Shown here: one piece after another, positions 16,408 through 20,721 of the stretch
Position numbering within the stretch: position 1 is the stretch's first letter
Layout: every line of letters starts with the position of its first letter
NCBI RefSeq assembly: GCF_000427425.1
Contig: NZ_KE386495.1
Coordinates: 1,105,072-1,169,071, forward strand
Length of the DNA stretch: 64,000 bases
Reading direction: 5' to 3'
Source of the DNA: Caldanaerobius polysaccharolyticus DSM 13641
Lineage (GTDB): Bacteria > Bacillota > Thermoanaerobacteria > Thermoanaerobacterales > Caldanaerobiaceae
The notes under the pieces: generated by a model
Database searches by the model: none
Told to the model about the DNA's origin: nothing
Seen by the model: only the letters and a program-made list of their open reading frames with translations
Position numbers and translations under genes: made by a program

Positions 16408-16636
16408 TTTGAGCTTTGAGGAAGCGTTAAAGAAATTGGAGGAAATCGTAAAAAAATTAGAAGGCGGTAATTTGACTTTAGAAGATACCCTTTCCCTTTT
16501 TCAAGAAGGGATACAGCTGTCCCGGATTTGTACTGAAAAATTAAACGAGGCCAGTGGAAAGATTTCTATACTGGCCAAAGATATAGATGGAACTTTTTCT
16601 GAAAAACCATTTGGAGAGGGTAAGAATGATAGATGA
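16388..16636 (+). CDS. xseB: Exodeoxyribonuclease VII small subunit
   Basis: An 82-aa helical protein with LSFEEALKKLEEIVKKLEGG and LTLEDTLSLFQEGIQLSRIC, diagnostic for XseB, which wraps around the helical tail of XseA. It overlaps xseA at its start and ispA at its end, showing tight coupling. Confidence 0.95.
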   Translation: MSENGLNLSFEEALKKLEEIVKKLEGGNLTLEDTLSLFQEGIQLSRICTEKLNEASGKISILAKDIDGTFSEKPFGEGKNDR

Positions 16637-17504
16637 GCTGAGGAAGTATATAGATATTGTAGATAAGGCTTTAGACGGGTACCTTCCGGGCGAAAGCGTA
16701 TATCCCCAGATAATCCATCAGTCCATGAGATACAGCCTCTTTGCAGGGGGTAAACGAATACGCCCTATTTTATGTCTGAAAGCCTGCGAGATGATTAAAG
16801 GGGATTATGCCGACGCGTTGCCTATTGCATGTGCTATCGAGATGATCCATACATATTCCCTTATACACGATGACCTGCCTGCTATGGACAACGACGACTT
16901 CAGGCGAGGTAAACCTACAAATCACAAGGTATATGGAGACGCTATAGCCCTTTTAGCAGGCGATGCCCTTTTGACCCATGCTTTTGCCGTTTTAAATCGC
17001 TATGCTCTGGAGAGCGGAGAGCTTAAAACTCTCAAGGCCATAGATGTGATTGCAAGGGCTGCCGGTACCGAAGGTATGATAGGAGGGCAGGTTGTAGATA
17101 TCATCCAGCAAGGCAAAACCATTGACGAGAAGACCATGTATTACATGCACGAACACAAAACGGGTGCCTTGATAAAAGCATCTGTCCTGTCAGGTGCTAT
17201 AATGGGTGGTGCCGACGATGAACAACTAGAGGCTTTGGAGAGGTATGCGGAGTATCTGGGGTTGGCATTTCAGATTATGGATGATATTCTGGATGTGGTA
17301 GGAGACCAAAACCAGATGGGCAAGCCTGTGGGCAGTGATGCTAAGAACGGCAAGTGTACCTTTGTATCTATATACGGCTTGAGCAGGGCAACACAGTTGG
17401 TAGAGGAATATACTAAAATGGCTGTGAAAGCGTTGGAGATTTTCGGCGAAAAGTCGGCGTTTTTTCGCGATTTTGTCGTATTCCTTTCGAAAAGAAGAGC
17501 GTAG
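16626..17504 (+). CDS. ispA: Farnesyl / geranylgeranyl diphosphate synthase
   Basis: Chain-elongating prenyltransferase that condenses isopentenyl diphosphate onto allylic diphosphates. The 292-aa product has the first Asp-rich motif HDDLPAMDNDD near 85-95 and the second DDILD near 220, plus GGKRIRP near the N-terminus. ATG 16626 follows GGAGAGGG and is preferred over an upstream in-frame ATG inside xseB. It is followed by OLE RNA and dxs, so two isoprenoid genes flank the RNA. Confidence 0.95.
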   Translation: MIDELRKYIDIVDKALDGYLPGESVYPQIIHQSMRYSLFAGGKRIRPILCLKACEMIKGDYADALPIACAIEMIHTYSLIHDDLPAMDNDDFRRGKPTNHKVYGDAIALLAGDALLTHAFAVLNRYALESGELKTLKAIDVIARAAGTEGMIGGQVVDIIQQGKTIDEKTMYYMHEHKTGALIKASVLSGAIMGGADDEQLEALERYAEYLGLAFQIMDDILDVVGDQNQMGKPVGSDAKNGKCTFVSIYGLSRATQLVEEYTKMAVKALEIFGEKSAFFRDFVVFLSKRRA

Positions 17505-17560
17505 CTTGATAATGGTCGTGAAAGCTCTTTCATAATTCTGCGTTCTCATCCGGGCAAAGT

Positions 17561-17589
17561 TTGATTGGGTTTAGTTCCTGTGATATAAT
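17561..17589 (+). promoter_or_regulatory. Promoter of OLE RNA
   Basis: TTGATT (17561-17566), 17-nt spacer and TATAAT (17584-17589) preceded by TG (extended -10). Initiation near 17596 coincides with the expected 5' end of OLE RNA. Confidence 0.72.
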
Positions 17590-17595
17590 TTAGAC

Positions 17596-18203
17596 AACAT
17601 GTTCTCATGTGAAGTGGAAGTGGCGCAGTATTCTAGTCAGCTCTGCCAATCCTGAAGACGGGCCTAAAAATCCGTCAAGGGCATATCGATGAAGCTCCTT
17701 GTGCTGGCTGCCAACGCCCAGTTGGGAGCTGGTGCTGGGAGATAGGAAATGGGGCGATCCACAAAGGCATGTGGGCGATGACCCTGTTTCCGTGGAGGCC
17801 TAAGTGCGTGATGCATTGGGCGTCACGGCTTAGTGTTGAACCTGTTTCGCGGTGTAAAAGCTGTGAGCAGTGTAGCCTGCCTTGAGTAGAAAGGGTAGAG
17901 ATGGGGTTCGAATTTTACCTCGACGGCCTAAGGGTAAAATTTTTGCCCATCGAAACCCTTTTTGCAAAAGAGGCTAGGGATTGGGTCAGGCTGTGGAGGA
18001 AAGCTCCTAGACTGTACCGAACAGGTGGCATGTCAGAGATTACAGTGTAGTCTTAGTGGCAATCCAGTCCTATCACTGGCGACATGATAGAAATGGGTTT
18101 AAAGGGAAACCGCCTTTTTGGCGACAAAGAGGTACCCATTTGGGAAATCCTACTGGACCTAAGCTGCAAAATTTATCTGGCATGTTGCCACTTCCACGCT
18201 TAT
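17596..18203 (+). ncRNA. ole: OLE RNA (ornate large extremophilic RNA)
   Basis: About 600 nt without a convincing reading frame between ispA and dxs. The ends pair: GTGGAAGTGGC (17614-17624) is the exact complement of GCCACTTCCAC (18187-18197), closing the whole region. Several internal hairpins are visible, e.g. GGGTAAAATTTTTGCCC around 17932-17949 and the ACATG-TTCT-CATGT hairpin at 17598-17610. Length, GC-rich purine-rich loops and the gene order folD-xseA-xseB-ispA-OLE-membrane protein-dxs-tlyA match the locus where OLE RNA was first described in Firmicutes. OLE RNA is known to associate with the cell membrane through OapA and is linked to Mg, cold and alcohol stress in Bacillus halodurans. 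The exact ends are inferred from the promoter and the terminal pairing. Confidence 0.92.
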
Positions 18204-18244
18204 ACATACCTTGATTTTAATGCTTGATGTGAGGAGTGTATGCT

Positions 18245-18823
18245 TTGGCTAACAGTAAAAAGCCAAAGGTAAACATAAAGTGGACCTTTACGGCTGTAAT
18301 TATAAGCTTTGTGACAGCTATGGGTTTAGGATCTGTGTCTGAGGTTTTACTCAGTGAAGCAGGCTTGCTCATGGCTTTTATTTTATTGCTAGTTGTGATT
18401 TTTTTAGGCGTCGTATTTGATATCATAGGGATAGCTGCGGCAGCAGCCGATGAAAAACCTTTTCATTCAATGGCCTCAAATAAGGTGGCAGGAGCGAGGC
18501 ATGCGATAAAACTGATACGAAATGCCGGGGTGGTCTCTAACTTTTGCAATGATATAATGGGAGATATATGCAACATCCTGAGCGGTACTATTCTGGGTAT
18601 AATACTTCTTAAGCTGTCCGGGAAAGTAAATGTGGATAGGGCCATTATGAGCGCTCTTTTGAGTAGTATTGTGGCGGCCACTACAATTGGGCTGAAAGCA
18701 GCGGAAAAAAATATTGCTGTAAACCAGAGTAATGATATAATATTGTTGGTTGGTAAATTTCTATATTGGTTATCGCGCTATCTTAAAATAGAATTATTTA
18801 AAAATAAGAAAAATAAGAAGTAA
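18245..18823 (+). CDS. oapA: OLE-associated membrane protein (OapA)
   Basis: A 192-aa membrane protein with about four transmembrane helices (around 17-37, 40-68, 115-135 and 145-165). The central cytosolic segment [23 protein letters not shown] with [16 protein letters not shown] is typical of OapA, a distant relative of DUF21/CNNM-type proteins, and the C-terminus is very lysine-rich, suited to RNA contact. It starts 42 nt after OLE RNA. TTG 18245 is chosen since GAGGAG lies 8 nt upstream; GTG 18236 overlaps that site. In B. halodurans OapA is required for membrane localisation of OLE RNA. Confidence 0.88.
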
Positions 18824-18836
18824 AGAGGTCGTATTA

Positions 18837-20721
18837 ATGCTGGAAAAAATCAATACACCTGAGGATTTAAAAAAACTCAGCGATGCGGAGTTAGTGCAAC
18901 TGGCTGATGAGATAAGGGATTTTTTGATCAAGAGCATATCAGTGACAGGAGGGCATTTAGCGTCAAACCTGGGAGTGGTGGAGCTTACCATTGCCATTCA
19001 CTCGGTCTTTAATGCACCTGTCGATAAGATAATATGGGATGTGGGGCATCAGTCGTATGTGCACAAGATCCTCACAGGAAGACGGGATAAATTTGCATCT
19101 TTGCGTCAAATAGGCGGTTTAAGTGGATACCCTAAGATCGCTGAGAGCCTGTACGATTGCTTTGGAACAGGACATAGTTCCACATCGATATCTGCGGCTT
19201 TGGGTATGGCGAGAGCTAGAAATTTAAAAGGGGAGAATTACTACGTAGTAGCTGTAATAGGCGATGGGGCTTTAACGGGCGGTATGGCTTTTGAAGCCCT
19301 TAACGACGCAGGACGTACCAAGACGCAGTTGATGGTCATATTGAACGATAACGAGATGTCTATATCCCGCAATGTAGGCAGTTTATCTATGTATTTGAGT
19401 AAATTGCGGACGGATCCGGCTTATTTTAAGATGAAGTCGGATATAGAAAAGGTATTAAATAGGATACCTGAGATAGGCCCTATGTTGTCAACTACCCTTA
19501 ACAGGTTTAAAAACAGCGTGAAGTCGCTATTGGTGCCCGGAATGATTTTTGAAAACCTCGGCTTTACGTATTTTGGACCTATAGATGGTCACGACATCTC
19601 GGCTCTAAGAGAGGTTTTAAACGCCGCGAAGATGGTGAAAAGCCCTGTATTGGTGCATGTTATCACCAAAAAAGGGAAAGGACTATAAAAAGGCAGAAAA
19701 CGACCCTGAGCATTACCATGGAATAGAGCCTTTTGATATAGAATCGGGCAACTGCAAAATAATAGCAGAAGGCAAGACGTATTCTCAGGTGTTTGGAGAG
19801 ACTCTGGTAGATCTTGCTAGAAAGGACAAACGAATTGTGGCAATAACCGCAGCTATGCCTTACGGCACAGGTTTGAGCAGGTTTAAAATCGAATTTCCCG
19901 ATAGATTCTTCGATGTGGGTATAGCAGAACAGCACGCTGTTACGTTGGCTGGTGGAATGGCGGCGGCTGGCCTTAAGCCGGTATTTGCTGTCTATTCTAC
20001 TTTCTTACAGAGGGGATACGATCAGATAATACACGATATATGCCTTCAAAGGTTGCCAGTGGTTTTTGCTGTGGATAGAGCTGGAGTGGTGGGAGAGGAC
20101 GGGGAAACTCACAACGGTGTATTTGATCTGTCTTACTTTAGCCATATCCCCAATCTCACCGTGTTATCCCCTAAAGATGGTGCAGAATTATCGGCTATGT
20201 TAAAATACGCTCTGGCATTAGACGCACCTGTGGCTATAAGGTATCCCCGGGGCTATTGCCATGGCGTAATAGAAGGAAAGGAGGAGTTTGACGGGCGATC
20301 TGAGATACTGCATAAAGGCCACGACGTAACCATTGTAGCTGAAGGTCGAATGGTTGGCATTTCGGCGAAAGCTGTAAAACTCTTGAAACAGAAAGGCATT
20401 GAAGCTGAGTTGATCAACGCTCGCGTTATTAAGCCTCTAGATAGAGATACTATAATATCCTCGGTTTTGAAAACAGGAAAGCTGGTCACAGTAGAGGACA
20501 ATGTAAGGATAGGAGGTATGGGAAGCAACATATTGCAGCTGATGAGCGATAGTTGCCTTTATGGTATACCTACCAAGATAATAGGCTGGCCTGATGAGTT
20601 TATATGCCATGGGAGTGTGGATGATGTTTTTAAACATTACGGCATGGATGCACAATCCATAGCCAATTCTATTTGGGAATTTATAAGCAGGAGACCTTAC
20701 TATGGGGAAAATGAGGCTTGA
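18837..20721 (+). pseudogene. dxs: 1-deoxy-D-xylulose-5-phosphate synthase, interrupted by a +1 frameshift
   Basis: First enzyme of the MEP isoprenoid pathway (pyruvate + glyceraldehyde 3-phosphate, TPP-dependent). The first part (18837-19688) holds the TPP motif GDGALTGG...LND and ends abruptly in [10 protein letters not shown]. The second part resumes in the next frame near 19684 as [17 protein letters not shown] and runs to 20721 with the transketolase pyrimidine and C-terminal domains (GIAEQHAVTLAGG). Removing one base, either an A from the A6 run at 19668-19673 or the C at 19683, restores a normal protein of about 627 aa. Every other feature is intact and the gene is essential unless a mevalonate route exists, so a sequencing error or very recent mutation is likely. 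Confidence 0.92.

Follow-up and report, generated by a model that had tools for sequence, protein, structure and literature searches.

An OLE RNA locus in Caldanaerobius polysaccharolyticus with a candidate EndoA cleavage hexamer at the 3' edge of the RNA

The OLE RNA gene and its surroundings

The window (the whole 64,000-nucleotide stretch of C. polysaccharolyticus DSM 13641 DNA analysed here) carries a full-length OLE RNA gene at positions 17604–18207 of the plus strand. The Rfam OLE model (RF01071) gave a non-truncated match over all 616 model positions, scoring 530.8 bits (E = 7.7e-153) where the gathering score is 50, and this is the sole match in the organism's own genome. A sequence-only reading of the same DNA had named OLE RNA at this place, had described about 600 nt without a frame and had proposed a covariance-model search as the check. 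The search exceeded the gathering score by about 480 bits, and a scan of 17549–18217 found no ORF of at least 60 aa in any frame. The RNA belongs to the full-length class rather than to variant 1 or 2, as it is 604 nt long, has P7, P8 and a long P9, and aligns to all model helices with large deletions absent. Both elements of the OLE dimer contact can be read from the sequence. The loop of P4 is A-rich (CCUAAAAA, 17663–17670 on the plus strand, placed by sequence and Rfam alignment) and the P9 loop contains the palindrome GGCC (17925–17928, plus strand). In the published cryo-EM structures an A-rich L4 forms dimer bridge B1 (PMC12286853, PMC12265935) and the palindromic L9 makes a kissing loop with itself, bridge B3 (PMC12286853).

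Upstream of ole lies ispA, encoding farnesyl diphosphate synthase (16629–17504, plus strand; NCBIfam NF045485, 370.8 bits and above cut-off), as in most relatives. The next gene downstream is oapA, which encodes the membrane partner protein of OLE and which the sequence-only reading had correctly placed next to the RNA. The oapA ORF spans 18236–18823 (plus strand), with a better start at the TTG at 18245, which has AGGAG 8 nt upstream and gives a protein of 192 aa; relatives 31–84% identical to it are found in the same position directly 3' of OLE. No Pfam or NCBIfam family matched OapA above cut-off, its sole profile signal being a weak CNNM match (16.1 bits), a relationship described in the literature (PMC11332333), and a sequence search of the PDB gave no matches. 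TTG is the best Shine–Dalgarno-supported oapA start in L001, L011, L044, L053, L058, L064, L071 and L081, which hints at weak translation of OapA. We found no intrinsic terminator between P1, the stem that closes OLE, and oapA in the window. Beyond oapA, dxs (18837–20721, plus strand) is divided between two ORFs that match TIGR00204 residues 2–278 and 273–615 respectively. Compared with the sister species L101, the window has a single additional base at the split (19657–19690), after KGKG and near 19685 (GGACTATAAAA versus GGATATAAAA). This is either an assembly error or a true frameshift in an isoprenoid gene that is intact in other respects. The order ispA–ole–oapA–dxs is common among the loci examined. 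The earlier placing of the RNA between ispA and dxs was right as to position, but this is the usual arrangement of the phylum and not a peculiarity of the genome. Because the order is the usual one, the locus is in itself a further member of a described class whose RNA and partners are already known.

Nearly all of the nearest genomes carry one OLE (40 of 41, the window's own included), as do 188 of 250 genomes sampled across the phylum. A search of plasmids returned one partial match only, at NZ_AP023421.1:200851-200969, on a 504-kb Pusillibacter faecalis replicon recorded as a conjugative plasmid. In four genomes (G200, G229, G247 and G272) OLE is split into two or three partial matches, possibly through insertions in the RNA or duplications, and a match of 764 nt (G085:C40:9299-10062), some 150 nt above the usual length, suggests an expanded helix or an insertion. 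One record titled Pseudomonas sp. ISL-84 (L188, JAGGRA010000014.1) holds oapA together with an OLE typical of Bacillaceae and is probably misnamed.

OLE RNAs dimerise through L4 and L9, are held at the membrane by OapA and are bound by OapB, OapC and bS21. The genes for the other partners were located in the organism's own genome. The OapB homologue lies between map and infA; it was missed by the KOW Pfam model, found by its position and then confirmed by its best PDB match, 7k9b, ‘OLE-associated protein B’ (E = 1.5e-11). A YbxF/OapC homologue lies between rpoC and rpsL, and a bS21 gene is present. No CNNM/MpfA-type protein scored above cut-off in this genome, the best weak match being OapA itself, which agrees with the report that MpfA is avoided where OLE is present (PMC11332333).

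The ole promoter and the P1 closing stem

An extended −10 promoter had been proposed in front of the RNA from the sequence alone. The candidate, TTGATT-N17-TATAAT on the plus strand (17561–17589), comprises TTGATT at 17561–17566, a 17 nt spacer with TG at 17581–17582, one base before the −10, and TATAAT at 17584–17589, and agrees with the consensus at 10 of 12 positions. Within the window alone such a site is at chance level (three promoter-like sites in a consensus scan against 2.9 expected), and it is comparison between genomes that bears the proposal out. The sister species retains TTTGATT and TATAAT amid flanks that have diverged. Of 123 loci whose P1 was verified, 91 contain a perfect TATAAT in the upstream 66 nt (shuffle maximum 22) and 81 a perfect TATAAT preceded by TGn (shuffle maximum 3), for the most part at a distance of 20–30 nt from the inner P1 end. 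These patterns strongly support a promoter of ole's own. For H. halodurans the literature describes the cluster as one polycistronic transcript (PMC12265935). The phylum-wide TGnTATAAT points to a promoter that belongs to OLE itself, and an ole promoter and a polycistronic transcript can both be true.

The ends of the RNA pair with one another. The 5' arm (GUGGAAGUGGC, 17614–17624, plus strand) is the exact complement of the 3' arm (GCCACUUCCAC, 18187–18197, plus strand), and the two arms find each other in the unconstrained MFE fold of the window RNA. This 11-bp end pairing, noticed already in the sequence-only reading, is upheld by covariation: across 66 loci the P1 pair positions are 83% paired (shuffle maximum 68%) and there are 177 double changes (shuffle maximum 91), with arm variants such as GGCAAAGUGGU/ACCACUUUGCC in L002 and GGGAUAGGGUGAU/AUCACCCUAUCCC in L012. 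We take this end stem to be P1 of the published OLE model. The Rfam model draws both RNA ends as unpaired, despite the strong covariation of P1 across lineages.

A UACAUA hexamer just 3' of P1

Five nucleotides past the 3' arm of P1 (18203–18208, plus strand) the transcript carries UACAUA, the hexamer at which EndoA (MazF) cleaves (U^ACAUA). The same word stands just 3' of P1 in 67 of 163 loci (about 40%), against a mean of 5.0 and a maximum of 11 in dinucleotide shuffles, and it is the most enriched of all 6-mers in this region, ahead of Shine–Dalgarno words. It was the commonest 6-mer in the first 66 loci too, and a named set of 66 loci, collected independently and with Bacillaceae among them, had it in 32 (shuffle mean 1.9). 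The rate is uneven, with 60 of the first 123 loci but only seven of the last 40 having it. Among the 60 motif sites of the first 123 loci, 52 are no more than 30 nt from where the P1 3' arm begins, most often 0–10 nt beyond the stem. The word is also present in H. halodurans, since the complement (TCATACATACGCAGTCGGAACG) of the reverse primer used for the OLE1-637 template (CGTTCCGACTGCGTATGTATGA) contains TACATA (PMC12054373).

The enrichment is confined to one place and to one exact word. UACAUA occurs in the upstream flank of a single locus of the 163, TACATA is depleted in the OLE body (three against 7.4 expected), and the 3' flanks of tmRNA genes in the same genomes have it in one case of 28. 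No one-mismatch neighbour was clearly enriched among the 163 loci, and 60 of the 64 loci with TACAT in the first 123 have the full TACATA. The MazF of B. subtilis, EndoA, cleaves U^ACAUA only if the last A is present (PMC11780869), a requirement which the 60 of 64 loci match, and the Symbiobacterium enzyme (S. thermophilum) prefers the same hexamer (PMC10893535).

Structure around the hexamer was also considered. In the predicted fold of the window RNA the hexamer is part of a weak hairpin formed with the beginning of oapA (unpaired probability 0.19), while across loci its openness is slightly higher than that of its surroundings (0.58 versus 0.50). Within 18198–18250 the bases that hold the hexamer can pair with the oapA start (AUACAU/GUGUAU), and a small hairpin may form over the translation start in this species. 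EndoA acts on U^ACAUA in single-stranded RNA, and the partial pairing predicted here speaks against a cut. A conserved pairing partner within OLE was rejected, as the complement TATGTA is depleted in the body (three against 12.8 expected), and so was pairing with the promoter TATGT in a read-through transcript (19/52 versus 21/64, p = 0.70).

The organism's own genome contains the gene order alr, antitoxin-like gene, EndoA, the last being an orthologue of the B. subtilis enzyme (E = 6.5e-48). Over OLE genomes generally, the hexamer was present in 60 of 137 having EndoA and in one of 18 in which EndoA is weak or absent (Fisher p = 0.0015; p = 0.046 with one over-sampled family counted once), where the EndoA-type label is a Pfam score cut and not a tested specificity. 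This comparison includes loci added after a first count that had too few EndoA-negative genomes. The sole exception is a draft genome (L063), which has UACAUA without a good EndoA. As the OLE genomes are related to one another and some are drafts, we regard the co-occurrence as supporting rather than decisive. No MazF-family protein was detectable in seven OLE genomes (G262, G213, G069, G098, G151, G156 and G206), and in the two of these whose OLE loci were examined (G262 and G213) the hexamer is absent.

Formation of the OLE 3' end

Processing of OLE at its 3' end has been reported for H. halodurans (PMC11332333), and in the literature examined no enzyme has been proven to form that end. The identity, strand and position of the hexamer and its co-occurrence with EndoA suggest that EndoA separates OLE from the oapA mRNA. 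Transcription of the RNA would start from the extended −10 promoter of ole, some 17–20 nt upstream of P1, in addition to any read-through from the ispA operon, and the transcript would continue into oapA without a terminator. OLE would then fold, with P1 closing, the L4 and L9 loops dimerising, OapA holding the RNA at the membrane and OapB, OapC and bS21 bound. A cut by EndoA at the single UACAUA just past P1 would leave the P1-closed OLE body with a short tail, parted from the oapA message. We consider this whole account, with promoter, P1, partners and 3' cut by EndoA together, to be somewhat better than evenly supported. Since an antitoxin holds EndoA in unstressed B. subtilis, such a cut would tie OLE release to stress, and the ratio of OLE to OapA would be coupled to stress as well. 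The broader proposal that EndoA/MazF is an enzyme of OLE maturation, so that a toxin–antitoxin switch sets the amounts of free OLE and of OapA message in a Bacillota cell under stress, we put forward tentatively, at a little under even chances.

EndoA cannot be the only route to a 3' end, because its cleavage is absent in growing wild-type B. subtilis (PMC11780869) and OLE is abundant. Nor is the motif needed everywhere, as about 59% of loci lack UACAUA and most of their genomes have EndoA. Terminator-like hairpins after OLE were found in two of 52 tight-motif loci and in 12 of 64 motif-free ones (p = 0.02), and because they are commoner where the hexamer is missing we propose two routes, with an intrinsic terminator serving in some lineages and a cut by EndoA in others; many OLE loci have neither element. 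One such hairpin (AGCTGATAG...CTATCAGCT), just 3' of P1, is common to L139, L152, L153, L160, L163 and L205 (Clostridia). L150 shares this hairpin, which is found in Alkaliphilus, Geosporobacter, Caloranaerobacter and relatives and is alike in both sequence and structure.

Among other explanations of the locus and its hexamer, the one with the best claim is that RNase P or RNase Y cuts the transcript, or an exonuclease trims it back to P1, and that UACAUA is an EndoA site which, once the toxin is active, serves to cut or destabilise the oapA mRNA. Susceptibility of OLE to RNase P has been reported along with its 3' processing (PMC11332333), EndoA is inactive during growth of B. subtilis (PMC11780869) and the many loci without UACAUA fit such a scheme, but the hexamer hugs P1 and is not scattered at random in the oapA leader or frame; we give this explanation perhaps half the weight of maturation by EndoA. 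Use of the hexamer as an uncleaved binding site, for an RNA-binding protein or a component of the RNP, would agree with an element that acts at the RNA level (one strand only) and adjoins a protein-rich RNP. It appears unlikely, given that the word is identical to the EndoA hexamer down to its indispensable last A, that variants are not tolerated and that it co-occurs with EndoA.

The two remaining explanations are much weaker. The location of TACATA upstream of oapA might suggest a DNA element, either a promoter −10 or a regulator site for oapA. A DNA site was rejected on grounds of strand, the reverse complement TATGTA being found in the 3' flank of none of the 163 loci (about four expected), and furthermore TATAAT shows no enrichment in that region (12 observed, 10.5 expected), TACATA does not end in the base that a −10 requires and the arm of P1 stands where the −35 would have to be, so that we think this very improbable. 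It is scarcely credible, and the least probable of all, that the stretch is merely a structured, riboswitch-like 5' leader of an oapA–dxs operon and makes no separate RNA. Co-transcription with oapA is itself probable, since no terminator separates the two in the window, but the whole OLE model is matched, and experiments have established OLE as an RNA in its own right in H. halodurans (PMC12265935).

The role of OLE lies in stress responses. If the interpretation in terms of EndoA is true, a strict EndoA site at the 3' edge ties OLE to a stress-controlled RNase and gives chromosomal MazF in Bacillota a conserved physiological target. In the open literature, of which our coverage was incomplete so that novelty is not proven, we found neither a mention of OLE as an EndoA/MazF substrate nor any link between them, and the connection through UACAUA is new as far as we have searched.

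Compared with the Rfam RF01071 RNAs of H. halodurans, C. acetobutylicum and C. botulinum, the RNA described here is alike in its coverage of the whole model, its P1, A-rich L4 and GGCC L9, its ispA and dxs flanks and the oapA gene directly 3'. There is no essential difference; P1 is here an exact 11-bp stem and the 3' tail has UACAUA, the latter being shared with H. halodurans. All four protein genes of the OLE RNP complex (OapA, OapB, OapC and bS21) are in the genome. The resemblance to the EndoA/MazF substrates of B. subtilis and S. thermophilum consists in the exact hexamer, together with an EndoA orthologue beside alr in the same genome, and the known substrates are, unlike OLE, mostly mRNAs.
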